The notes: generated from the sequence alone by a model not told the origin. A DNA stretch of 64,000 nucleotides from Deltaproteobacteria bacterium (GCA_029547805.1 JAKPOP010000001.1:186001-250000), one strand, 5' to 3'. Shown: positions 177-12,530, numbered from the stretch's first letter. Made by a program: numbers and translations.

Positions 177-1286
177 TCACTGGCCCAGGGTGTCCAGGGC
201 CAGGGTGCGCCCCGCATCGGTCAGCAGGAGGCGCCCGTCGAGACGCCGGACCAGGCCCCGGGTCAAGGCACTGCGGACGACCTCCCGGGCGAAGGGGGAA
301 TCCCAGGCCACGTGCTGCAGCAAGTGGTCCTCCCGGCACTCCATGTCGGCCTCCGGGGAGTCCTGGTGCTGCAGCAGGTGCACGCAGAGGGTCCGCAGGG
401 CGAAGTGGCGGCGCCGGGCCCGCCGGGCCACCAGGCGAGAGAGCAGGCCTTCCCGGGGGGCCAGCACCCAGGAGAGCAGGAACAGCCCCCCGACCGCGAC
501 GGCCATGGACCCCGCCAGGGAGGAATCGGACCACCAGGCCAGGGCGAATCCCAGGGCTGATCCCCCGGTGGCCAGCGCCACGGCCAGGATCAGCATCCGG
601 GGGAAGGACCGGGACCAGAGGCGGGCGGTGGCTCCCGGGGCGATCATGAGGGCCACCACGAGCACGGACCCCACGGCATCGAAGGCCGTGACGACCGTGA
701 GGGCCGTCAGGGTCATGAGGCCCAGGTGGACGACCTGGGGGTGGAGCCCCAGGGTCTTCGCAAACTCGGCATCGAAGGACGAGGCCTGGACCTCGTGGAA
801 GAAGGTCGCGATCAGGACGACCTGGAGCGCCAGCACCCCGGCCATCACGAAGAAGGCCCGGGGGCCGAGGTCCTGGCCGGCGACCTGGAGGCGGTCCAGG
901 GCCGAGAAGGCCAGTTCCCCCAACAGCACGGCGTCGGTGTCCAGGTGCACGTGCCCCGCCTGGAGGGCCACCAGGAGCACGCCCAGGGCGAAAAAGGCCG
1001 GGAAGACCAGGCCCGTCGCCGCATCCTGTCGCAGTCGGCCCGAGCGCTGGAGGGCCTCGATGAGCCACACCGCCAGCAGGCCGAAGACGGTGGCCCCGGC
1101 GACCAGCAGTGGGGAGGCCAGGTCCTTCACCACGAGGTAGGCCAGCACGATCCCCGGCAGCACCGAGTGACTGACGGCGTCGGCGATCAAGGCGTTGCGA
1201 CGCAGCACCAGCAGGGTTCCCGGCAGCGCGCACGCGGCGGCGGTGACCGTCGCCACCGCCAGGACCTCCCACCGGTACCAGGTCAT
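177..1286 (-). CDS. Metal (Mn/Zn/Fe-type) ABC transporter permease with C-terminal winged-helix tail
   Basis: Inner-membrane permease of the ZnuB/MntB/TroC-D family, which forms the channel of a binding-protein-dependent Mn, Zn or Fe importer. The 369-residue product has about eight to nine hydrophobic segments over residues 1-280 and the family pattern of an early LRRNALIADAVSHSVLPG stretch. The last ~85 residues are soluble, His- and Arg-rich, and end in a winged-helix-like unit (ALTRGLVRRLDGRLLLTDAG); most permeases of this family stop near residue 280. The ATG at 1286 was chosen because it overlaps the TGA of the upstream permease (ATGA) and begins the hydrophobic family N-terminus; the same frame stays open further upstream only as a shadow. 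The metal cannot be decided from sequence. The cognate ATPase and binding protein are probably the genes at 11.8-12.5 kb and 19.5-20.4 kb. Confidence 0.92.
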   Translation of the reverse strand: MTWYRWEVLAVATVTAAACALPGTLLVLRRNALIADAVSHSVLPGIVLAYLVVKDLASPLLVAGATVFGLLAVWLIEALQRSGRLRQDAATGLVFPAFFALGVLLVALQAGHVHLDTDAVLLGELAFSALDRLQVAGQDLGPRAFFVMAGVLALQVVLIATFFHEVQASSFDAEFAKTLGLHPQVVHLGLMTLTALTVVTAFDAVGSVLVVALMIAPGATARLWSRSFPRMLILAVALATGGSALGFALAWWSDSSLAGSMAVAVGGLFLLSWVLAPREGLLSRLVARRARRRHFALRTLCVHLLQHQDSPEADMECREDHLLQHVAWDSPFAREVVRSALTRGLVRRLDGRLLLTDAGRTLALDTLGQ

Positions 1287-2389
1287 GACGGCTCCTCCTC
1301 CTCCGCCGCCTGCCGGAGTCCCTCCTCGGTGAGGGCCAGGCGGCCCTCGGAGTCCCGCCGGACCCAGCCCCGGTTCTCCAGCGTGCGGAGGGCGTCCTCC
1401 AGCCGCGCCTCCCCCGGGGCCATCAGGCGGAAGACCTCCCGGGGGTGCCAGGCGGGCCGGTCCCCGTGGGCCCGAGCCAGGGCCAGGAAGTCCTGGAGCA
1501 GGGCCTCGGGGGACGCCGGGCCCCGGATGCCGACCCGGCCTCGCCACCAGGCGGGCAGGATCCCGTGGCGGGGGGCCAGGAGCAGGGAGGCTGCGGCAAT
1601 GCAGGTGACCCCGATTACCGAGGCAGGCCCCGTGGGGACGTGCTCCACCGCGGCGCTCACGAGGGTTCCCGCCAGGCTCCCCAGGACCCCGAACATCGCC
1701 GCCAGGACCATCATCCCCCCGAACCGATCGGTCCACTGACGGGCCCCGGCCGCCGGGGCGACCAGCATCGCGCTCATCAGCACCACCCCGACCGACTGGA
1801 TCCCCAGCACCACCACCCCCACCGCCATCCCGTTCAGCAGCAGGTCCAGCAGGCGCACCGGGACCCCCTGGGTCGTCGCGTATTCCCGGTCGAAGAGGAC
1901 CTGCTTCCACTCCTTCCAGAAGAGGCCCAGGAGGGCCCCGACGGACAGGAGTCCCCCGGCCATCCAGGCCAGGTCCCCAGGACGCATTCCGGCGGCCTGG
2001 CCGAACAGGAAGCGGTCCAGGCCCGCCTGGCGGGCGTCGGCCGTCTGCTGCACCCGGCTCAGCAGGGCGATTCCCAGGCCGAAGAAGACCGCCAGCAGGA
2101 GCCCCAGGGCCGTGTCTTCCGACAGGCGGGTGGTCTGGAGCAGCCAGGAGGTCCAGAGGGTCCCGAGGATCCCTGCGGCGGCGGCCCCGGCAAGCAGCAC
2201 CGGGGTCTCCCGGCTCCCGGTCCACCAGAAGGCCAGCACGATCCCCGGGAGGGCTGCGTGGCTCACGGCGTCCCCGAGCAGACTCTGGCGCCGGAGCAGG
2301 AGCAGGGTGCCCACGGTCCCCGCCAGGGCCCCCATCAGGCAGGCCCCGGCGGCCAGGACCTGCACCGTTGGGTCCATCCACCAACCCAT
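1283..2389 (-). CDS. Metal (Mn/Zn/Fe-type) ABC transporter permease with C-terminal winged-helix domain
   Basis: First permease gene of a two-permease operon; 368 residues of the ZnuB/TroC family. The N-terminus carries the conserved LLRRQSLLGDAVSHAALPG stretch, followed by roughly eight transmembrane segments to about residue 280. Residues ~290-368 form a soluble tail with a winged-helix pattern (LEDALRTLENRGWVRRDSEGRLALTEEG) like the DNA-binding half of DtxR/MntR-type repressors. It overlaps the next permease by four bases, so translation is probably coupled. A GGAG sits about nine bases before the ATG, and a TAGAAT -10-like box lies 40 bases upstream. Two different permeases suggest a heterodimeric channel, as in TroCD systems. 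Tail function, either metal sensing or ATPase docking, is unknown. Confidence 0.92.
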   Translation of the reverse strand: MGWWMDPTVQVLAAGACLMGALAGTVGTLLLLRRQSLLGDAVSHAALPGIVLAFWWTGSRETPVLLAGAAAAGILGTLWTSWLLQTTRLSEDTALGLLLAVFFGLGIALLSRVQQTADARQAGLDRFLFGQAAGMRPGDLAWMAGGLLSVGALLGLFWKEWKQVLFDREYATTQGVPVRLLDLLLNGMAVGVVVLGIQSVGVVLMSAMLVAPAAGARQWTDRFGGMMVLAAMFGVLGSLAGTLVSAAVEHVPTGPASVIGVTCIAAASLLLAPRHGILPAWWRGRVGIRGPASPEALLQDFLALARAHGDRPAWHPREVFRLMAPGEARLEDALRTLENRGWVRRDSEGRLALTEEGLRQAAEEEEPS

Positions 2390-2533: not shown

Positions 2534-3955
2534 ATGAACCGGTACCTCATCGTCTCGGACCTGCACCTCTGCGACGTCGAGGATCACGCCGACGGTTGGA
2601 AGGACTACAAGTCCTCCCGGTATCTCTTCGACGAGGCCCTCCGGGGACTGGTCCAGGATGCGGTCCACCGGCGGCCCCAGGGGGCCTCGTTCACGCTGGT
2701 CCTCAACGGGGACGTCTTCGACTTCGACCTGGTCACGGCGGTTCCCGATCCCCCGCCCTGGCCGGTGAGCCGACCCGAGCGGAAGCGGGGACTGGACCCC
2801 ACGCCCGAGAAGTCGGCCTGGAAGATGGGGCGCATCCTGGACGATCACGGGGTCTTCGTGGACCTGCTGGCGGACCTGGTCCGGAGTGGCCACCGGGTCG
2901 TCTTCGTGCTGGGCAACCATGACCGGGAACTCCACTTCCCCGAGGTGCGCCGGGTGTTGGTGGAGCGTCTCCGGGAGCGGATCGAGGCCTCGGGGGACAC
3001 GATGGACGACTCTCGGGTCCTCTTCGAGCCGTGGTTCTTCCTGGTTCCCGGGGAGGTCTATGCGGAGCACGGCAATCAGTACGACTACTACAGTTCGTTC
3101 CGGAACGTCCTGTGCCCGACGGTCCGGCTGGACCGGGAGGTCCGGATCGCGCTTCCGATGGGCAACCTGTCGAATCGCCATCTCCTGAGTCGGATGGGCT
3201 TCTTCAATCCCCATGCCTCGGACTTCATCCTGAACCTGTTCGCCTACCTGTGGCACTGGCTGCGGTTCTACGCCTTCTCCCGTCGCAGCCTGGTGGGGCC
3301 CTGGCTCTGGGGAAGTCTGGTGGTGATGGGCCGGCTGTTGCGGGTCCGGGCGGCCCTCCAGCGGCAGACCCCGGACTGCGAGGCCTTGCTGGACCAGGAG
3401 GGGACCCGGAAGGGACTCCCCCGGGAGGTCATCCGGGCGCTCCACCGGCTCCACCTGCCTCCGATCACCGGGCGGTTCTTCCGGATCGTCCGGGAGTTCT
3501 GGGTCGATCGGCTGCTGATCGCCGTGGTCATGATCGGCGGGACGGTGACCCTGGCCCTGGTCCCCATCCCCCTCTGGATCAAGCTGATGGTGCCCCTGAC
3601 GGCCTTTCCGCTGGCCTTCTTCCTCTACGAGAGCCTGGTCCGGGGGGAGGACATCTTCACGGCCGAACGGCGGATGCCCGAGCGGGCCCGGGAGGTGGCC
3701 CGGATCGTGCCGGTCCGGCTGGTGACCTTCGGGCACTCCCACGTGCCGCTGCTGGTGCCCCTGGCTCGGGGAGTGGTCTACGGGAACTCGGGGACCTGGG
3801 CGCCGATCCCGGAGCGATGGAGAGGGCCATTGCGGGAGGGCTACCGGGATTTCCTGCTGGTGGACATCGGGGACAACGAGGCCAGGGTGATGCTGGACAG
3901 CGGGCTGGAGTTGCGTCGGAGCGGGACGACCGGCGAAGGCGAAGAGGGGCCATGA
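2534..3955 (+). CDS. Calcineurin-like metallophosphoesterase with inserted membrane hairpin
   Basis: Binuclear-metal phosphoesterase of 473 residues. Metal motifs are in order: DLH (D9, H11), GD (D60), GNHD (N128-D130) and GHSH (400-403). Between GNHD and GHSH lie two strongly hydrophobic segments at about 327-365, so the enzyme is probably anchored by a membrane hairpin with the active site on one face. LpxH-type enzymes share the motif order but are about half this length and lack the insertion, so the substrate is unknown. The ATG at 2534 starts the canonical beta-strand, follows GGAGG at 2520 and lies just after a -10-like box; the longer open frame upstream is a shadow of the divergent permease gene. 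Its stop overlaps the apbE start by four bases, suggesting a two-gene operon. Confidence 0.88.
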   Translation: MNRYLIVSDLHLCDVEDHADGWKDYKSSRYLFDEALRGLVQDAVHRRPQGASFTLVLNGDVFDFDLVTAVPDPPPWPVSRPERKRGLDPTPEKSAWKMGRILDDHGVFVDLLADLVRSGHRVVFVLGNHDRELHFPEVRRVLVERLRERIEASGDTMDDSRVLFEPWFFLVPGEVYAEHGNQYDYYSSFRNVLCPTVRLDREVRIALPMGNLSNRHLLSRMGFFNPHASDFILNLFAYLWHWLRFYAFSRRSLVGPWLWGSLVVMGRLLRVRAALQRQTPDCEALLDQEGTRKGLPREVIRALHRLHLPPITGRFFRIVREFWVDRLLIAVVMIGGTVTLALVPIPLWIKLMVPLTAFPLAFFLYESLVRGEDIFTAERRMPERAREVARIVPVRLVTFGHSHVPLLVPLARGVVYGNSGTWAPIPERWRGPLREGYRDFLLVDIGDNEARVMLDSGLELRRSGTTGEGEEGP

Positions 3956-5055
3956 GGGGACGACACGGAGGGGCCTTGGGCGGCAAGGGGGTCCCATGGA
4001 AGGCGATCGCCCGGGGCATTGGGGTCGCGGCCATGGCCGCCTTCATGGGGGGGCTCGGGGGGGCCTGTCGGTCCGGCACCGGGGACTTCCTGCGGGAGAC
4101 CCGGGAGGTCTATGCGGGCATTCCCGCGGAGATCACCTTCGCGGTCCCCGAGGGACGCGGGGAGGAGGCGCGCCGGTGGATGGCGGCCTGCTGGGAGGAG
4201 GTGGAACGGGTCGGACGGGTGGTCAACGCCTTTTCCGCCGACTCGGAGGTGGGCCGGCTCAACGCCGCCCGGAAGACCGATCCGTGGCCCCTCTCGGGGG
4301 AACTGGCGGGGCTGCTGCAGCGCTGTCGGCAGGTCTTCGAGGCGACCTCCGGGGCCTTCGACCCGACGGTGTGGCCCCTGAAGCAGGTCTTTCGTCAGGC
4401 CCGGACCGAGGGGCGTTTGCCAGATCCGCAGCGGCTGGCGGAGGCCCGGGATCGGGTGGGCATGGGACGGGTGCACCTGGACGGGGATCGGGTCCGGTTC
4501 GAGGTGCCCGAGGCGGCGTTGGACCTGGGGGGAATCGCGAAGGGCCACGCGGTGGACCGGGTCGTGGAGTTCCTCGAAGGCCAGGGGGTGACCCGCTACC
4601 TGGTGCGCATCGGGGGCGAGATCGGGGCATCGGGCACGTCCCCCCAGGGACGGCCATGGCGGATAGGCGTGCAACACCCCCGGATTCCCGGGCAGCCCAT
4701 CGGGGTGCTGGAGGTCCCCGGGCGGGTCTTCGTCTCGACCAGCGGTCCCTATGAGCAGCCGGTGGTGATCGGGGGGCAGGTCTTCCACCACGTCTTCGAC
4801 CCCCGGACCGGGGAACCGGCGCCCCTGGACGTGCTGGGGGTCACGGTGGTCTCCCGGGCGGGTCCCCGGGAGGGGGCTCGGGTGGATGCCCTGGCGACGG
4901 GACTGGCGGTCCTGGGTCCGACGGAGGGACTCGCGGTGGCGTCCCGGGAGGGGGTCGATGCCCTCTTCCTGGTGGCCGGTCCCGGGGACAGCATCACGAC
5001 CCGGGCGACCCCAGGCATGGAGGTGATCTACCGGCCTCTGGGCGACACTCGGTGA
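3952..5055 (+). CDS. apbE: FAD:protein FMN transferase (ApbE family), probable lipoprotein
   Basis: ApbE enzymes attach FMN through a phosphoester bond to Thr/Ser of DgxtGAT motifs in extracytoplasmic flavoproteins. The 367-residue product has an N-terminal hydrophobic stretch ending in a weak lipobox (LGGAC), then the ApbE core: N-A-F-S-x-D-SEVGRLN, GAFDPTVWPLK, ALDLGGIAKGHAVDRVVE, YLVRIGGEI, and the C-terminal HHVFDPRTGEP and DALATGLAVLG segments. It starts inside the metallophosphoesterase stop (ATGA). It converges on the operon whose 1198-residue fusion protein at 5330-8926 contains a TGAT flavinylation motif, the obvious candidate substrate. Periplasmic-side location follows from the signal sequence and known family biology. 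Confidence 0.95.
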   Translation: MRGRHGGALGGKGVPWKAIARGIGVAAMAAFMGGLGGACRSGTGDFLRETREVYAGIPAEITFAVPEGRGEEARRWMAACWEEVERVGRVVNAFSADSEVGRLNAARKTDPWPLSGELAGLLQRCRQVFEATSGAFDPTVWPLKQVFRQARTEGRLPDPQRLAEARDRVGMGRVHLDGDRVRFEVPEAALDLGGIAKGHAVDRVVEFLEGQGVTRYLVRIGGEIGASGTSPQGRPWRIGVQHPRIPGQPIGVLEVPGRVFVSTSGPYEQPVVIGGQVFHHVFDPRTGEPAPLDVLGVTVVSRAGPREGARVDALATGLAVLGPTEGLAVASREGVDALFLVAGPGDSITTRATPGMEVIYRPLGDTR

Positions 5056-5126: not shown

Positions 5127-5333
5127 TCACCGGTAGAACATGGCCTCATGGTCCGAGAGGCGCTGCTGCTGGATCATGCGCTCGATCCGGGTGGGATCGA
5201 CGGACCGGAGCGTTCGGCCGGAGGTCAGGGCCTCCGGGGTGCCGCGGCCGCCGGTGACCCAGGTCCAGAGAATTCCGGCGGCACAGAGGACCACCAGCAG
5301 GCCGTACACCACCTGGAGCAGCCGGTGCCTCAT
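5127..5333 (-). CDS. Small single-pass membrane protein downstream of the FMN/Fe-S fusion protein
   Basis: 68-residue protein not assignable to a named family. Residues ~5-26 form one transmembrane helix with an Arg before it. The rest is a hydrophilic tail ending in SDHEAMFYR. The ATG overlaps the stop of the 1198-residue fusion gene (ATGA), so it is very likely co-translated, and its position as last gene of the operon suggests an accessory subunit of that redox protein. It is embedded in the same frame as a long spurious reading frame; operon context and the overlap support the short version. No cysteines or cofactor motifs remain in the tail. Confidence 0.7.
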   Translation of the reverse strand: MRHRLLQVVYGLLVVLCAAGILWTWVTGGRGTPEALTSGRTLRSVDPTRIERMIQQQRLSDHEAMFYR

Positions 5334-8300
5334 GGCTCCGCCTCCTCCGGGGGCGCCTTCCGGGACCGGACCCCTGGGACGCAGCGGTTGCACCGGAGGC
5401 ACTCGAGGTCGTGAGGCCCCTGGACGTCGAGGTCGCAGGCCCCGAAGGACCGGCGGGGGCCCAGACCCAGCCAGCCCGCCAGGCGGTTGCCCAGGTTCAG
5501 GAAGGCCCCCACGGGGCAGAAGACCCGGCACCAGAAGCGGAACGCCAGGAGGCTTCCCACCAGGGCCGCAGCCGCGATCCAGGCTCCGGGGCCCTCCGGG
5601 TGGCCCGAGAAGGCGACTGCCAGGGGGTCGAAGGCCAGGGCCCCCTCGGGACGGGGCGAGAAGAGGGACAGGACCACCAGCACCAGCACGCCATACTTGA
5701 GGCTCCGGGCCACTCGGGAGAGGCCCGGGGAGGGGCGGCCGATCCAGTGGAGCCGGCCCGAGATTCGGCTCGTGATTTCCTGGAGGGCGCCGAAGGGGCA
5801 GAGGTGGGCGCAGTAGAGGGGGCCCAGGAGGGCCGCCAGCAGCAGGACTCCGGCCGACAGGATCGCCAGGGCCGCGTTGGCCTGCCAGGATGGCCACTGG
5901 AACCGGGCCAGGGAGGCCAGCCAGGTGGCCGAGACCTGGAGGTTGAAGAGGATGCCTCCCCCCACGGCCGAGACGCCCAGCAGCAGGAGGCGGGCCCTGG
6001 GGCCCCCCCGGAGGTGCACCCACAGGGCGGCCAGCAGCGAGGCGATCACGAAGAACACCCGGGCGTCCAGCAGGGGATGCCACCAGGGGGCCTCCGGGGT
6101 GGCCCCTTCCGCCGGGAGACCCAGGACCTTGCCCGCAAGGGCGGCCCGGGTCCGGTCCAGGGCCGCCAGCACCGCGTCTCGGGTCACCGTGGCGCCGGTC
6201 ATGGCATCGATCTCCCCGAGGTCCCGGGCCGACAGGGGGTGTCGGGCATCCCGTCCCCGGAGGGCCTCCATCAGGGTTGGCAGGCCTCGGACATAGGACG
6301 GGGTTTCGTGGTGGGCGATCACCGCCGCGCCTCGGATCCGGCCGTCTTCCCCGATCGAGAGGGCCAGGTTCAGGGGACCCCCGTAACCCTGGACGTCCGG
6401 AGCCACGGCCTGGGAGGAGGCGGCGACCGCCGTGGCGGGAGGGGTCCCCAGGCCCTCCAGGCGGTGGTGGGGGAAGGGGTCCTCTTGGGGAGTGGCCGCC
6501 GAGAAGGCCTCGATGCGTCGGAGGTCCCCCAACGAGAGCCGAGAGGAGAGCCGAGGGTCGGGCTCCCGGGAGGCGTGCCAGAGCAGCAGGGCGCCGAGGG
6601 TCAGCACGGTGGCCACGGCCGGCGCCCATCGCCAGGGGAAGGCCGGGCTGGCCAGGGACCGCCACAGGCGATGGCCCCGAAAGGACCGGCCCGGGGCCAG
6701 GATGTCGTCGGCCACCAGCAGGATGGCCGGGATCACCACCAGTCCCGCCAGGGCCCGGAAGGTCGTCGCGGTTCCGAAGACCGCCAGGCAGAAGACCCCG
6801 CCCACCCCCGAGAGGACCATGGCCCCCCAGTGGTCCGCCGCCTCCAGCCGGGCCGCGACCCGGGACCCGGGGGCAAGGCCTGCGGCCAGGGGCCAGGCGC
6901 CGCCGGTCACCAGGCCCGCGGTCAGGAAGGCCAGTCCGAATCCCCACCGAGAGTTCCCGAGGGCTGCCAGCAGACCCGGGGCCAGGGCCAGGAGCCCCGC
7001 GGTGACCAGGGCGTACCCCAGGGACCGGCGCCGGACCTCCGCGGGACCCATTGCACCGGCCCAGCGATGGGCCCCGTAGGACCCGAGGGCAAGGCCTGCC
7101 ATCGATGCGGAGGTCCACAGGGCGATCTCCCCGTGGATCGCCCCCAGGCGGGCCTGGCAGGTCGTCAGCAACAGGGCGTGGGTCGTGATGGAGGTTCCTC
7201 CGACCACTCCCAGGAGCAGGGATGCGGCGAATCCCTCGGGGTCCGAGTCCCGGCGGACCCGTTCCCGAAGGACCGCGACGGCCAGGACCGCGAGAATGGC
7301 CGCCAGCCACCAGGGGCCTGCCCGGGAGGCCCGGGAGAGGACCCCGACCAGTGCCGAGTCCGATTCCCGGAGGCGGGCCAGCAGGTGCAGCATGGAGGCC
7401 AGGGGGCGGTCATCCCGGTTCACCAGGCCCCTCGGGGCCTCGCCGTAGAGGGTCGTCGCCAGGGCGATCCGGTCCGGCGGCAGCATCGGGACGAAGGCCT
7501 CGGGTGGGAAGGGGGGCGGGGAGGGGACGATGGAACGGTAGCGATCGGCCAGCACCCAGGGGTCCAGGGCCACCGGCTGATCCGACGCGATCAGGACGGC
7601 CCGGTCCCCGGGAACCACCGTGACGGATTCCCAGATCGCCTGGAGGGTCTGCCAGACCGACTGCCCGTAGCGACGTTCCTCCGTGCCCAGGGCGTTCTCC
7701 CCGGACCGGACGGGAACCGCCACGACCCCGCCCGGCGCCAGCAGGCGGCGGACCACCTCCAGGAACTCCACCGTGTAGAGCCGGTTCGCCAGCAGGGTGG
7801 TCGGCTCTCCTCCGGCGATCACCACCAGGTCCAGGGAGGATCGGCCGCTTCCGGACTCCTTCTGGCCCAGGCGTTGGACCCAGTCCCGCTCGTCGGCGGT
7901 CACCAGGACCACCCGGTCCAGCAGGTCGGCCCCGGATCCGGTGCGGACCCAGGCCTGCCGGAACTGCTCCCCGTAGACGGGGTCCCGAACCACGCACTGG
8001 ACCACCGGAAACACCCGCGCCAGCCGGGTGGCCAGCAGCAGCCCGTCCTGCCCGATCACAAGGGCCCGATTTCGGTTCGCCGGCAGCGTGGCCAGCAGGG
8101 CCCCGATCCCCTCTTCCCCGGGACCCGGTGGAAAGGAGGCCGCCACCTCTCCGTTGGTCAGCAGCACCGTCTGGCCCGGCATCCGGGCCTCGGTGAGGGC
8201 CTGATACGGGGTCTCGATGTCCCGGACCCACTCCGCCTGGGGCAGACTGGCTCGCAGCCGCATCCGGGGATAGGCGTCTCCGAGGCTCACGGCGGCCACC

Positions 8301-8926
8301 AGGACCCAGGCGATCCCCGGCAGCAGGCCCAGGGCCCTCCGGTGCCTACGTCCCAGGGCCCCGACGGCACCCAGCGCCGCCAGGGGCAGGCCCCCCAGCA
8401 CCACCAGGCCGGAACCGCCCAGGCCGCCCTGGATGGCCAGAGCGGAGGCCAGGCCCCCGACGACCGCCCCGGCCGCCTCCAGGGCATACCCGATCGAGGC
8501 TCCGGTCCTGGACCCTTCGGCGGCGCCCTCGCAGACCGCCGGGAAGACCAGGCCCGTCCAGAGGCAGACCGGGGCGGTGGACAGCAGGGCCGCCAGTCCC
8601 AGCACCCCCGGGGGGACGGGCTCGTAGGCCGGGATGCCCGACAGCATGCGGGCCCAGGGGATGGCCCAGACCCCCAGCAGGCCCGCCAGGGGCTGCAACG
8701 ACAGCAATGGCCACCGGTGGCGCAGGACGACCCGGTGGAGCGCCGGGACGCGCCGCATCGCCGTGGCCCCCAGGGCAATCCAGGCGAACCACGCCGCAAA
8801 GAACGTCCCGAAGGCCAGTTCGCTGCCCCCGAAGGGGATGAGGAACTCCCGGATCAGGGCCACCTGGGTCGCGATGGTGAAGAAACCGAGGCTCCCGGCG
8901 GCCCATCGTGAGAACCGGACGGTCAT
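5330..8926 (-). CDS. Fusion: spermidine-synthase-like membrane protein + FMN-binding domain + NapH/NosR-like Fe-S domain
   Basis: 1198 residues. About 1-220: six to seven transmembrane helices. About 225-480: Rossmann-type methyltransferase/spermidine-synthase-like domain (LVIGQDG near 289; LAPGGVVAVPV near 396), in which the usual catalytic Asp region reads AGGEP, so polyamine synthesis is doubtful. About 535-785: second helix bundle. About 790-925: periplasmic FMN-binding domain with HHETP (872-876) and DAMTGAT (907-913), where T913 is the predicted flavinylated residue. About 950-1198: NapH/NosR-like membrane domain with C1039xxxC1043P, C1133xxxC1137P and a terminal C1176xxC1179xxC1182. 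Likely role: electron transfer across the membrane via flavin and Fe-S clusters. ApbE lies next door. A GGAGG six bases upstream supports the start, which is 24 bases after the MEMO1-AMMECR1 gene. Confidence 0.9.
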   Translation of the reverse strand: MTVRFSRWAAGSLGFFTIATQVALIREFLIPFGGSELAFGTFFAAWFAWIALGATAMRRVPALHRVVLRHRWPLLSLQPLAGLLGVWAIPWARMLSGIPAYEPVPPGVLGLAALLSTAPVCLWTGLVFPAVCEGAAEGSRTGASIGYALEAAGAVVGGLASALAIQGGLGGSGLVVLGGLPLAALGAVGALGRRHRRALGLLPGIAWVLVAAVSLGDAYPRMRLRASLPQAEWVRDIETPYQALTEARMPGQTVLLTNGEVAASFPPGPGEEGIGALLATLPANRNRALVIGQDGLLLATRLARVFPVVQCVVRDPVYGEQFRQAWVRTGSGADLLDRVVLVTADERDWVQRLGQKESGSGRSSLDLVVIAGGEPTTLLANRLYTVEFLEVVRRLLAPGGVVAVPVRSGENALGTEERRYGQSVWQTLQAIWESVTVVPGDRAVLIASDQPVALDPWVLADRYRSIVPSPPPFPPEAFVPMLPPDRIALATTLYGEAPRGLVNRDDRPLASMLHLLARLRESDSALVGVLSRASRAGPWWLAAILAVLAVAVLRERVRRDSDPEGFAASLLLGVVGGTSITTHALLLTTCQARLGAIHGEIALWTSASMAGLALGSYGAHRWAGAMGPAEVRRRSLGYALVTAGLLALAPGLLAALGNSRWGFGLAFLTAGLVTGGAWPLAAGLAPGSRVAARLEAADHWGAMVLSGVGGVFCLAVFGTATTFRALAGLVVIPAILLVADDILAPGRSFRGHRLWRSLASPAFPWRWAPAVATVLTLGALLLWHASREPDPRLSSRLSLGDLRRIEAFSAATPQEDPFPHHRLEGLGTPPATAVAASSQAVAPDVQGYGGPLNLALSIGEDGRIRGAAVIAHHETPSYVRGLPTLMEALRGRDARHPLSARDLGEIDAMTGATVTRDAVLAALDRTRAALAGKVLGLPAEGATPEAPWWHPLLDARVFFVIASLLAALWVHLRGGPRARLLLLGVSAVGGGILFNLQVSATWLASLARFQWPSWQANAALAILSAGVLLLAALLGPLYCAHLCPFGALQEITSRISGRLHWIGRPSPGLSRVARSLKYGVLVLVVLSLFSPRPEGALAFDPLAVAFSGHPEGPGAWIAAAALVGSLLAFRFWCRVFCPVGAFLNLGNRLAGWLGLGPRRSFGACDLDVQGPHDLECLRCNRCVPGVRSRKAPPEEAEP

Positions 8927-8950: not shown

Positions 8951-10498
8951 TCAGGGCCGCTCGTGGAAGACGTGGGCCTGGAAGGTCTGGAACCGGGCGC
9001 CGGACTTCCACGCATCCGGGGCCAGTCCCGCCTTCATCGAGAGGTGGGTCAGCGTGGTCGGCAGGTCCCAGCCCTGTTCCGGGGCCACCTGGGGCAGGAA
9101 GACGGCCCGGCGTCCCCCCTTCTCCAGGAGCACGCCGTCGCGGCCCAGGCGAATGTCCTGGAAGGAGGGCACCTCCTCCAGGGGCGTCAGCACCGAGACC
9201 TCGATGTCCACCTCCGGCTCCTCTGCCGGGGTCATCGGCGAGAACCGGGGGTCGTGGGCAGCGGCGTTGACGGTGTTGCGGATGACGCCCTGGTAGAGGG
9301 GTTCGGTGCCCACGATGGAGCCGATGCAGCCCCGGAGGTCGCCGTGCTTCTTGAGCGTCACGAAGACCCCGTAGGTCTCCCGGGCCCTCGGGGGGACCTC
9401 CCGGCCCTCCCGGACCGGGTCCGGCAGGGGCTTGCCGGCCAGGTGTCGCTGGAGGGTCTCCCGGGCCAGGGCCAGGAGCCATTTCTGGGTCGCCTCGTCC
9501 AGCAGGTCCCTGTTCTCGAAGGAGACCGGTCCGGTCCTGGGGACGAAGGCGATGGAGAAATAGGACACGGAGTTCTGGTAGTCGCCGGTCATGCGTCCCG
9601 AGGTGTCGAACCGCAGGGGCACCGCCTCGGCCGATGCCGGCAGGGTCGCCAGCAGCACCAGGATGGGACCCGCGCCACAGATCGTGTCCCCGGTGGACTG
9701 GAGGTGGGCCTGGAATCCGTCCAGGTCCATCTGGGCCAGGGGCTTCGCGGCCTGCATCGCCAGGTCTTCCAGGCGCTCCGGGACCCTGTCCCGGAACGGG
9801 ACATGGCCGTAGTTGGGGCCGTAGTGGGTGAAGTCGGAACTGGCCACGATCACGGTGTGGTCGTCCACGATGCTCCGGAGGGTCGCGGCGGCCTCTCGGG
9901 CCTCGGCGGGGCCCACCTGCCCCACGACGATGGGCACCAGGGTCGCCTCGGGGGCGACGACCTGCAGGAAGGGGATCTGCATGTCCACCGAGTGCTCCTG
10001 GGCAAAGGCGTCTGGACGAGTGGCGAAGACCCCGCCGGACTGTCGGAGGCGGTCCAGGGCCTCCTGGTCCAGGGGCACCTCCCCGAGGGGGGTGCTCCAG
10101 TGGGTGGCATCGGGGATTGCGAGGCCCCGGAAGGGCACCCGGTGGCTGGGGCCCAGCACCACGACCCGCCGGATGTTCCGCCCCTCCAGCAGCCGATAGC
10201 CGTGGGCGGCGACTCCACCGGAATAGCGGTATCCCGCATGGGGCGAGATCAGGCCCAGCACGGGGCCGCGATGACTCGACAGGTCCGAGAGGTCGGCCTG
10301 GTCCAGCATCCGCCGGACCTCCCTCCGGAGCCCCTCGGGGTCCCCGGGGTACCAGGACCCGGCCACGGGGGAGTGGATCACCCGCTTCACGACTGGAGGG
10401 GACCCAGGATCGGTGTTTCCTTTCATGGCAGCCTCCTGACCCTTGCAACACAGGCTCACGGACAGCACCCCCAACCACAGCGCCCCGAGGTTCTTCAT
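8951..10498 (-). CDS. amrB-amrA: AmmeMemoRadiSam system fusion protein: MEMO1 domain + AMMECR1 domain, lipoprotein-like signal
   Basis: 515 residues. After a short hydrophobic leader ending in SVSLCC, the N-terminal part is a MEMO1 domain (dioxygenase-like fold) with SPHAGYRYSG, GPSHR, HSVDMQIPF and SSDFTHYG, which supply the metal-site His/Asp/Cys set. The C-terminal ~165 residues are an AMMECR1 domain with the signature LRGCIGS. In most genomes A and B are separate genes or fused in this order. The ATG at 10498 is preferred because GAGGGG lies six bases upstream; ATG 10504 is alternative. The leader suggests export and lipidation, which is unusual for MEMO/AMMECR1 and should be tested. It follows the Tat-signal gene by 10 bases. 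The pathway product is not established. Confidence 0.92.
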   Translation of the reverse strand: MKNLGALWLGVLSVSLCCKGQEAAMKGNTDPGSPPVVKRVIHSPVAGSWYPGDPEGLRREVRRMLDQADLSDLSSHRGPVLGLISPHAGYRYSGGVAAHGYRLLEGRNIRRVVVLGPSHRVPFRGLAIPDATHWSTPLGEVPLDQEALDRLRQSGGVFATRPDAFAQEHSVDMQIPFLQVVAPEATLVPIVVGQVGPAEAREAAATLRSIVDDHTVIVASSDFTHYGPNYGHVPFRDRVPERLEDLAMQAAKPLAQMDLDGFQAHLQSTGDTICGAGPILVLLATLPASAEAVPLRFDTSGRMTGDYQNSVSYFSIAFVPRTGPVSFENRDLLDEATQKWLLALARETLQRHLAGKPLPDPVREGREVPPRARETYGVFVTLKKHGDLRGCIGSIVGTEPLYQGVIRNTVNAAAHDPRFSPMTPAEEPEVDIEVSVLTPLEEVPSFQDIRLGRDGVLLEKGGRRAVFLPQVAPEQGWDLPTTLTHLSMKAGLAPDAWKSGARFQTFQAHVFHERP

Positions 10499-10508
10499 CC
10501 CCATCCCC

Positions 10509-10748
10509 TCACCCCGCCAGATCCTCCCGGGTGGCCAGGTCCTCCGGGAGCAGCGGCTTCCCAGGGATCCGGAGGGCTGGACCCGGCGAATTCCCATCTC
10601 GTGGCCCTCCCACGGCTGTCGGCGCCAGGGCCAGCGTCGCTGCGGCCAGGGCCCCGGCCGTCAGGAACTCCCGCCGATCGATCGGGGTGCCCTGGGCCAG
10701 GGGGGCCCTGCGGATGCCTTTCGGCCCGGGACCGGCCTTCCTCTTCAT
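10509..10748 (-). CDS. Tat-signal mini-protein within the AmmeMemoRadiSam operon
   Basis: 79 residues, no recognised family. It contains a twin-arginine signal (DRREFLTAGALAAATLALAPTA, roughly residues 24-45) preceded by a basic N-terminus. Only about 30 residues would remain after cleavage, rich in Pro and Leu/Asp/Glu, with no cysteines. The ATG overlaps the TGA of the radical SAM gene (ATGA) and the stop is 10 bases before the MEMO1-AMMECR1 start, so it sits inside one transcription unit. It could be a maturation substrate of the system, a membrane-anchored partner, or the stub of a longer Tat protein that lost its 3' part. Confidence that it is expressed is moderate. Confidence 0.65.
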   Translation of the reverse strand: MKRKAGPGPKGIRRAPLAQGTPIDRREFLTAGALAAATLALAPTAVGGPRDGNSPGPALRIPGKPLLPEDLATREDLAG

Positions 10749-11737
10749 CTGGGCCTCCCAAAGACCCCCGCAATGGGGGTTCCACAGGCCGGACATCTCC
10801 CCTCCGCGGTGACCCGGAGGTCCGTGACCTGGTGCCCTGCCCGGGCGATCACCACGGCCCCGCAGGAGGGGCACCGGGTGGACTCGGAGGGATGTCCCGG
10901 GACGTTGCCGAGATAGACGTAGCGCATGCCCTCGTCCCGGGCCAGATTCCAGCAATCCTCGAGGGTCCCGACCGGGGTGGGGGGCAGGTTTCGCAGGCGA
11001 TGCTGGGGCACGAAGCGCAGGAAGTGCAGCGGCGTATCCGGTCCCAGGTGGTCCCGGACCCACCGGACCAGTTGCCGGACCTTGCCCCGATCGTCGGACA
11101 TCCCCGGGATCACCAGGTTCGAGACCTCGAGCCAGGCTCCGGCCTCCCGGGCCGTTTCGAGGGTTTCCAGCACCGGCCGCAGGCCGCCGTCGCAGACCTC
11201 CCGGTAGAAGGCCTCGTCGAAGCACTTCACGTCGATGGTGGCCGCCTCGACCACCCGGAAGAGGGCCCGCATGGGGTCCAGGTTGCCGTAGCCTGCCGAC
11301 ACGATGGCGCTCCGAAGCCCCTGGTCCCGGGCCAGAGCCGCGGTCTCGTAGGCGTACTCGTAGTAGACGATGGGCTCGGTGTAGGTGTAGGCCACCAGGG
11401 GGATGCCCCGTTCCCGGGCCAGGTCCACCACCCGGGCCGGAGGGAGGGCGTAGGCCTCCGTCTCCTCGGGATTCGCCTGGGAAATCTGCCAGTTCTGACA
11501 GTTCTGGCAGTGGAGGTTGCAACCGACGGTGGCCAGGGACAGAATGCGCTGTCCCGGGAACCAGTGGAAGAAGGGCTTCTTCTCCACCGGGTCGTCGTGG
11601 ACCGCCACCGGGAACCCGAAGGTGACCGCCCGGAGCGTCCCGTCCAGGTTGATCCGGATGCGGCAGTCCCCGGCCTTCCCGGGCGGAATCTGGCATTGCT
11701 TCGGGCACAGCAGGCACTCGACGGTCCTTGCGGCCAT
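10745..11737 (-). CDS. amrS: AmmeMemoRadiSam system radical SAM enzyme
   Basis: 330-residue radical SAM enzyme. An N-terminal cysteine cluster (CLLCPKQC, then AGDC) is followed by the SAM-cluster motif C73xxxC77xxC80 (CNLHCQNC) and NWQIS, typical of this subfamily. The C-terminus carries a zinc-ribbon pair (CPSC...CPAC). It partners MEMO1 and AMMECR1, encoded two genes downstream. The substrate is unknown to me. The ATG at 11737 is preceded by GGGAGGTG at ideal spacing and begins at the family's first Cys cluster; the longer frame to 11824 overlaps the ATPase gene and is rejected. Only 28 bases separate it from the ABC ATPase stop, so both may share one transcript. Confidence 0.95.
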   Translation of the reverse strand: MAARTVECLLCPKQCQIPPGKAGDCRIRINLDGTLRAVTFGFPVAVHDDPVEKKPFFHWFPGQRILSLATVGCNLHCQNCQNWQISQANPEETEAYALPPARVVDLARERGIPLVAYTYTEPIVYYEYAYETAALARDQGLRSAIVSAGYGNLDPMRALFRVVEAATIDVKCFDEAFYREVCDGGLRPVLETLETAREAGAWLEVSNLVIPGMSDDRGKVRQLVRWVRDHLGPDTPLHFLRFVPQHRLRNLPPTPVGTLEDCWNLARDEGMRYVYLGNVPGHPSESTRCPSCGAVVIARAGHQVTDLRVTAEGRCPACGTPIAGVFGRPR

Positions 11738-11765: not shown

Positions 11766-12530
11766 CTATCCCTTTCCGGCGGGGTCCGCCTCCCGGTCCC
11801 GGGGGAAGACCGCGATGCGCCCACCGAAGGCGGCCCGGAGGTTGGCCTCGTGAAAGACCTCCTCCACGGGACCCGAGGCGATGCGGCGGACGTGGATCAG
11901 TGCGACGTGGTCGAAGTAGTCCCGGACCGTCTGGAGGTCGTGGTGGACCAGCAGCACGGTCCGGCCCTGTCGCTGGAGGTCCTTCAGCAGGGCGACGATG
12001 GCCTTCTCGGTCCGGGCATCGACCCCCTGGAAGGGCTCGTCCATCAGCAGGACCTCCGCGTCCTGGACGAGGGCCCGGGCCAGGAAGACCCGCTGCTGCT
12101 GGCCGCCTGAGAGTTCCCGGATCTGGCGGTCGGCGAAGCCCACCATCCCGACCTGCTCGAGGGCCCGGGAGGCCCGGTCCAGGTCCTCCCGGGAGGGGTT
12201 CCGGAAGAGGCCCAGGGCGCCGTATCGCCCCATCACCACGACGTCGCGGACCTGGATCGGGAAGTCCCAGTCCACGGTGCTCTTCTGGGGGACGTAGGCG
12301 ACCTGACGCCGGACCTGGTCCAGGGGCCGGCCCAGGATGCGCACCTGCCCCGCAGCCGGCCGCACCAGCCCGACGATGGCCTTCAGGAGCGTGGACTTCC
12401 CGGCCCCGTTGGGTCCCAGGATGGCCATCCGGCTGCCCCGGGGCACCTCCAGGTCCACGTCCCAGAGGACCGGTCGATCCCGGTAGGCGACCGTCAGGTC
12501 CCTCACCTCGATGGCGGCGGAGGTCGTCAT
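11766..12530 (-). CDS. Metal ABC transporter ATP-binding protein (Mn/Zn/Fe class)
   Basis: 254-residue cytoplasmic ATPase powering a ZnuABC/MntABC-type importer. Walker A GPNGAGKS (39-46), Q-loop PQK (81-83), signature LSGGQQQR (140-147), Walker B LLMDEP (161-166) and H-loop VHHD are intact. The segment VDWDFPIQVRDVVVMGRYG is characteristic of the manganese/zinc/iron (SitB/MntB-like) subfamily. The ATG directly precedes the first beta-strand, has no Shine-Dalgarno, and lies about seven bases after a perfect-looking TATACT box, so translation from a leaderless mRNA is likely. The permeases are at 0.2-2.4 kb and the binding protein at 19.5-20.4 kb, an unusual separation. It may head the transcript of the AmmeMemoRadiSam genes. 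Confidence 0.95.
   Translation of the reverse strand: MTTSAAIEVRDLTVAYRDRPVLWDVDLEVPRGSRMAILGPNGAGKSTLLKAIVGLVRPAAGQVRILGRPLDQVRRQVAYVPQKSTVDWDFPIQVRDVVVMGRYGALGLFRNPSREDLDRASRALEQVGMVGFADRQIRELSGGQQQRVFLARALVQDAEVLLMDEPFQGVDARTEKAIVALLKDLQRQGRTVLLVHHDLQTVRDYFDHVALIHVRRIASGPVEEVFHEANLRAAFGGRIAVFPRDREADPAGKG

Follow-up and report, generated by a model that had tools for sequence, protein, structure and literature searches.

A predicted flavin- and iron-sulfur-bearing membrane protein as candidate hub of a proposed extracytoplasmic AmmeMemoRadiSam system in Myxococcota

This analysis concerns a 1198-residue membrane protein, here called the hub, encoded in a 64,000-nucleotide stretch of DNA from a Deltaproteobacteria bacterium (GCA_029547805.1 JAKPOP010000001.1:186001-250000). 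The whole stretch is referred to as the window, and positions are counted from its first letter. The hub joins a spermidine-synthase-like module, a flavin mononucleotide (FMN)-binding domain and a NapH/NosR-like iron-sulfur (Fe-S) domain in a single chain. Judged from sequence comparison, its place in an operon is conserved, and it tracks one clade of a radical S-adenosylmethionine (SAM) enzyme family, a clade linked to twin-arginine translocation (Tat). That the protein acts as membrane hub for an AmmeMemoRadiSam system working outside the cytoplasm is a proposal we hold at about even confidence. A fuller version, which we advance tentatively and put a little short of even, is that the radical SAM enzyme would be active outside the cytoplasm, Tat-exported via its own signal or a partner peptide, and would be served by the hub, which would use Fe-S clusters and covalent FMN to relay electrons and a repurposed synthase domain to handle SAM or its products.

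Architecture of the hub and its operon

The features of the operon, and the two hub motifs of greatest interest, are located in the window as follows.

10745–11737, minus strand: AmmeMemoRadiSam radical SAM enzyme (family match to TIGR04337), probable start MAARTVECLLC
10509–10748, minus strand: 79-residue Tat-signal peptide (DRREFLTAGALAAATLAL), ending in LAG before the stop codon; ATGA overlap with the radical SAM gene
8951–10504, minus strand: MEMO-AMMECR1 fusion (TIGR04336 and TIGR04335) with a lipoprotein-like signal; start at about 10498–10504
5330–8926, minus strand: hub protein, 1198 residues (translation, Pfam and NCBIfam matches, hydropathy, family profile)
7802–7816, minus strand: AGGEP, hub residues 371–375, where spermidine synthases have the catalytic DxxDP (alignment, profile)
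6188–6199, minus strand: TGAT motif, hub residues 910–913, predicted to carry covalent FMN on Thr913 (translation; kept in relatives)
5127–5333, minus strand: 68-residue tail protein with one transmembrane (TM) segment and a conserved C-terminal LSDHEAMFYR; ATGA overlap with the hub gene
3952–5055, plus strand: ApbE flavin transferase with lipobox LGGAC, convergent to the hub gene

The hub reading frame runs from an ATG at 8926 to a TGA at 5330. It encodes seven TM segments, a spermidine-synthase-like domain (residues ~216–534), eight further TM segments, an FMN_bind domain (847–924) and a NapH/NosR-like Fe-S membrane domain (~957–1198). Pfam identifies FMN_bind (PF04205) at residues 847–924 (E 4.6e-11, 43.6 bits against a cut-off of 22) and Fer4_5 (PF12801) in two stretches, the better at 1019–1058 (E 2.2e-13, 50.4 bits against a cut-off of 22). 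NCBIfam matches to NosR/NapH and RnfG fall below their cut-offs, and residues 33–405 weakly match an aminopropyltransferase. The best PDB sequence matches of the FMN_bind domain are RnfG and NqrC. The Fe-S domain harbors three Cys sets, namely C1039-x3-C1043-P, C1133-x3-C1137-P and C1164...C1176-xx-C1179-xx-C1182, and nearly all relatives with the respective domains retain the flavinylation motif as well as the two CxxxCP motifs. The assignment of the C-terminal half to the NapH-like flavinylated kind is well supported by these matches, and ApbE, the only one found in the genome by family searches, would attach FMN to Thr913. A full-chain AlphaFold model computed from two sequences reached a predicted local distance difference test (pLDDT) score of 38, was unusable and was set aside.

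Much of this architecture had been recognised in a sequence-only reading of the stretch. The single three-part chain, the replacement of the catalytic Asp region by AGGEP, the TGAT as likely flavin site, the three Cys sets and the neighboring ApbE all hold in the translation and in the family and profile matches. That reading missed the AmmeMemoRadiSam operon, the Tat peptide, the tail, the lipoprotein signal and the Tat-linked clade.

On the minus strand the genes follow the order radical SAM enzyme, Tat-signal peptide, MEMO-AMMECR1, hub and tail protein. The adjoining genes all exceed their family cut-offs (170 bits for TIGR04335, 232 for TIGR04336 and 338 for TIGR04337), and membership of the operon in the AmmeMemoRadiSam kind is well supported on this basis. 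In most fused loci MEMO-AMMECR1 lies directly upstream of the hub and, where the contig extends that far, is itself preceded by the radical SAM gene; in relatives with sufficiently long contigs the gene order is retained across families. No further oxidoreductase gene is conserved in the operon. A simple, mechanical lipobox-like test was passed by 12 of 15 MEMO reading frames, and the Cys context in the window's MEMO-AMMECR1, VSLCC, is not a textbook lipobox.

Hydropathy averaged across relatives gives seven TM segments, the synthase-like domain, eight TM segments, the FMN domain and then the NapH-like helices. Mean Lys/Arg content is 1.7–5.5 in the inner loops and 0.1–1.6 in the short outer loops, a pattern shared by the 12 fused and the 8 unfused relatives. 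Because the inner loops are richer in Lys/Arg, the synthase-like and FMN domains are predicted to lie outside and the CxxxCP sets inside; this topology was drawn from averaged hydropathy and loop counts, without a dedicated TM predictor.

The Tat-linked radical SAM clade

A full-length relative of the hub with 74% identity is present in another Myxococcota genome, and matches at E 1e-10 or better were found in 28 of 284 Myxococcota genomes. Fused forms occur in several families of the phylum, several of them interrupted by contig ends, and elsewhere the parts are separate proteins, either synthase-like (~740–815 residues) or FMN/NapH-like (~425–490 residues). The sequence-only reading had allowed for an assembly fusion of separate genes; a search for the domain order excludes this, as the identical order, full length or cut by contig ends, recurs in independent assemblies from several families.

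The hub and the clade co-occur almost one to one. Within the 189 genomes covered by the search for radical SAM family members, and with split halves counted as hub relatives, both were found in 19, a hub relative only in 2 (G133 and G158), a Tat-clade enzyme only in 1 (G166) and neither in 167 (Fisher p 7e-23, a value that overstates independence because the genomes are related by descent). Beyond the 189, seven further hub-positive genomes all hold the radical SAM family above cut-off; six are in the Tat clade (G191, G200, G206, G229, G246 and G267), and the seventh, G208, is the L140 exception weighed below.

In a tree of 83 radical SAM sequences the partners of the hub fall into one clade of 28 rows (support 100/98). 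By reading, partly by eye, 27 of these rows are Tat-linked, with the signal fused in 7 and carried by a small separate gene in 20. The Tat-fused enzymes constitute a sister subclade, in which one chain carries a Tat-like signal ahead of the radical SAM domain (G002, G035, G094, G155, G180, G200 and G246). A relaxed mechanical scan returned 20 of 28 rows within the clade against 2 of 56 beyond it (p 5e-11), counts which are not blind, the first detector having been too strict and relaxed after examples had been seen. The scan flagged 7 fusions inside the clade and 0 outside, although the flag on L040 is probably spurious and a real fusion, L098, was missed. Two Tat-fused enzymes, L049 and L141, both of family f29, bear a CxxCH after the signal, and haem attachment to CxxCH takes place outside the cytoplasm. 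The CX3CX2C cluster motif is present in all 28 rows (GCNLHCQNC in the window enzyme). Signals are absent from the paralogues outside the clade, among them L091 of the window's genome. As a sequence pattern the Tat link of the clade is well supported, and it suggests that the radical SAM enzyme itself may be exported.

The surroundings of the Tat-fused enzymes are varied. L141 (G200:C263), one of the two with CxxCH, lies near a Rieske-like Tat protein, a cytochrome b and multihaem cytochromes, and the fused enzyme of G180 lies near a small membrane protein with weak cytochrome-b-type matches. These different electron carriers fit a need for electron exchange, the direction of which they do not give. 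In L137, a DUF362 protein with a Tat-like signal (2853–3968, plus strand) is directly upstream of the Tat-fused radical SAM enzyme.

The separate Tat peptides are characterised by RR.(F/L) followed by a hydrophobic stretch, and the complete cases read end in AG before the stop codon, except L058. Stop readthrough after LAG was rejected, the residues that would follow being unlike between the window and L003.

A second conserved element, R.VD......LSD.EA.(F/W)(Y/W), forms the tail, which some genomes encode as a separate one-TM protein and others as the C-terminus of the hub itself. Fused or separate, the motif is present in 15 loci, and the predicted topology places the tail outside. Those radical SAM paralogues that do not belong to the window-type group carry an N-terminal (E/P)A(R/M)(F/Y/W)(Y/W) that ends ~8 residues before the first Cys. 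The window-type enzymes begin directly at the first-Cys region, and a similar motif is found in the tail of the membrane partner. With a matrix built from 15 tails, 14 of 55 paralogue N-termini scored above the 95th percentile of shuffles (~3 expected), mostly at 8 residues before the first Cys. This is moderate evidence, the motif being short, that the tail may dock the radical SAM enzyme in trans.

The spermidine-synthase-like domain and related systems

The window's synthase-like part alone matches no Pfam family, although 9 of 15 homologous domains match Spermine_synth, and a profile built from these 15 finds solved spermidine synthases (3anx, E 1.2e-33). Foldseek ranks aminopropyltransferases first (E 2.2e-9) for a low-confidence domain-only model (pLDDT 54), used solely as fold support. 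The first Asp of DxxDP is absent in every aligned relative, so its loss is family-wide and not limited to the window gene, and EP/DP.T..NR.YT.EF is retained in the aligned relatives. L036, L037, L049, L050, L052 and L053, which are unfused or distant relatives, largely retain the Gly-rich loop and the ribose-binding acid. The unfused L037, L052 and L053 also pass the NCBIfam cut-off of NF037959 (fused major facilitator superfamily (MFS)/spermidine synthase), which the window hub does not match. Polyamine synthesis is not expected of the domain, because the catalytic Asp is lost and, in the branch of the window protein, the adenosyl-site residues have degenerated. Some relatives may plausibly bind an adenosyl-type ligand, which for the window protein is doubtful. 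Most likely the domain holds such a ligand, either SAM or a SAM cleavage product, or acts as a scaffold.

Parts of the hub system resemble four kinds of described proteins. The NapH-like flavinylated systems combine FMN_bind with PF12801, and NosR and PceC are characterised members (PMC8238504). The hub shares with them an extracytoplasmic FMN domain with S/TGAT, a membrane region with two CxxxCP motifs, a further Cys set and an ApbE nearby, but its chain adds a preceding 15-TM spermidine-synthase-like module and a conserved outside tail after it, and it sits in an AmmeMemoRadiSam operon rather than a respiratory one. The main text of PMC8238504 mentions neither spermidine synthase nor AMMECR1. 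RnfG and NqrC likewise contain an FMN_bind domain with a covalent-FMN Thr motif, whereas the hub has different membrane partners and is not part of an Rnf or Nqr complex. NF037959 and the TM-containing aminopropyltransferases of PRK03612 combine a TM bundle with the spermidine synthase fold; in contrast, the hub has no catalytic Asp, its domain is predicted to lie outside, and it is fused to flavin and Fe-S modules. With AmmeMemoRadiSam (TIGR04335, TIGR04336, TIGR04337) the operon has MEMO, AMMECR1 and the radical SAM enzyme in common, all above family cut-offs, yet here MEMO-AMMECR1 is predicted to be a lipoprotein, the radical SAM enzyme belongs to the Tat-linked clade and a dedicated membrane redox hub is present. 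Burroughs et al. 2019, cited in PMC7159879, reportedly described 'Memo-Ammecr1 systems'.

Proposed mechanism, rival explanations and neighboring genes

In the proposed mechanism, electrons would pass between the cytoplasm-side Fe-S clusters and the outside flavin, and would feed, or drain, the outside chemistry of MEMO-AMMECR1 and the radical SAM enzyme, the latter being exported through Tat by means of either a fused signal or the separate Tat peptide. Through its LSD.EA.(F/W)(Y/W) motif the tail would dock the enzyme, supplying in trans the element that other paralogues bear N-terminally, while the synthase-like domain would have been repurposed for a role other than making polyamines. Conservation of MEMO and AMMECR1 extends from archaea to humans, and to our knowledge they have no settled biochemical function. 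Their apparent location outside the cytoplasm, together with a radical SAM enzyme and a redox hub, hints at where their chemistry may happen, that electrons cross the membrane and which partners may be involved. If true, an extracytoplasmic radical SAM enzyme would run counter to the usual assumption of cytosolic confinement and provide a new place for such chemistry. A phrase search of 5.39 million open papers, which left other wordings and subscription papers uncovered, returned no report of an extracytoplasmic radical SAM enzyme and is weak evidence of novelty; a literature search for AMMECR1 together with radical SAM gave one passing mention.

Several points weigh against this mechanism. 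We know of no periplasmic SAM pool, and radical SAM enzymes need a strong reductant, perhaps stronger than quinol or a covalent flavin. SAM binding by the window's synthase-like domain is doubtful, because the Gly-rich loop and ribose-binding acid are degenerate in its branch. In the window, the radical SAM enzyme itself lacks a signal, so that its export rests on the separate peptide, whose TAT_signal score is just below the Pfam cut-off. Within the clade, L140 has no detected Tat partner, the Tat peptide of L101 sits on another contig, and assignment by eye enters the Tat counts. Furthermore, every comparison lies within Myxococcota, and one wider contig scan returned only a Myxococcota relative.

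By an unlikely alternative reading, the radical SAM enzyme stays cytoplasmic and the Tat peptide and tail are its substrates, modified before crossing; MEMO-AMMECR1 would finish them outside, and the product would be a peptide-borne redox group exchanging electrons with the flavin hub. SAM is cytoplasmic, Tat is generally known as a route for proteins finished in the cytoplasm, and small conserved peptides adjoin the radical SAM gene, with a conserved LAG C-terminus in one and conserved aromatics in the tail. However, the sister subclade has the Tat signal fused to the radical SAM enzyme itself, two of these enzymes bear a CxxCH that needs export, and complete window-type Tat peptides are nearly devoid of conserved reactive residues beyond the C-terminal AG. 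It is also improbable that the hub is an ordinary NapH-like flavinylated relay for some periplasmic reductase or oxidase, with MEMO-AMMECR1 and the radical SAM gene as unrelated or only regulatory neighbors. The FMN/NapH-like half is indeed of a known kind that is used with many different enzymes (PMC8238504), but the gene order kept across families, the nearly one-to-one co-occurrence and the lack of any other conserved oxidoreductase gene in the operon argue against this reading.

Two further explanations concern the synthase-like part. The sequence-only reading had suggested that it binds a quinone or another redox small molecule, and the retention of the fold despite loss of the catalytic Asp could be taken in this sense. 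We know of no quinone-binding homologue of the synthase fold, and the domain is soluble, with a predicted place outside the membrane. Dealing with quinol is common among NapH-like proteins (PMC8238504), yet several relatives retain a SAM-type nucleoside-binding signature rather than a quinone-binding one, leaving the suggestion unsupported and very improbable. Least credible, to the point of being nearly dismissed, is a membrane-bound polyamine aminopropyltransferase with extra redox domains: the fold and the family matches agree with it, but no aligned relative has the catalytic Asp, and the predicted position of the domain is outside.

A metal-type ATP-binding cassette (ABC) transporter is apparently split around the operon, with its ATPase at 11766–12530 (minus strand) upstream of the radical SAM gene and an ABC-3 permease at 1283–2389 (minus strand) beyond ApbE; among the wide loci searched, only L003 shares this layout. 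Just before ApbE, the window encodes a metallophosphatase-like protein with TM segments (2534–3955, plus strand), with 83% identity in L003. Copy numbers in the window's genome rest on family searches, by which a second AMMECR1 was not found. The genome's only other FMN_bind match (L001/L039, G000:C11:50413-50676) lies in a 560-residue open frame, and a second MEMO (L149, G000:C25:180976-181764) and a second TIGR04337 radical SAM enzyme, the signal-less L091 (G000:C23), are encoded on different contigs.

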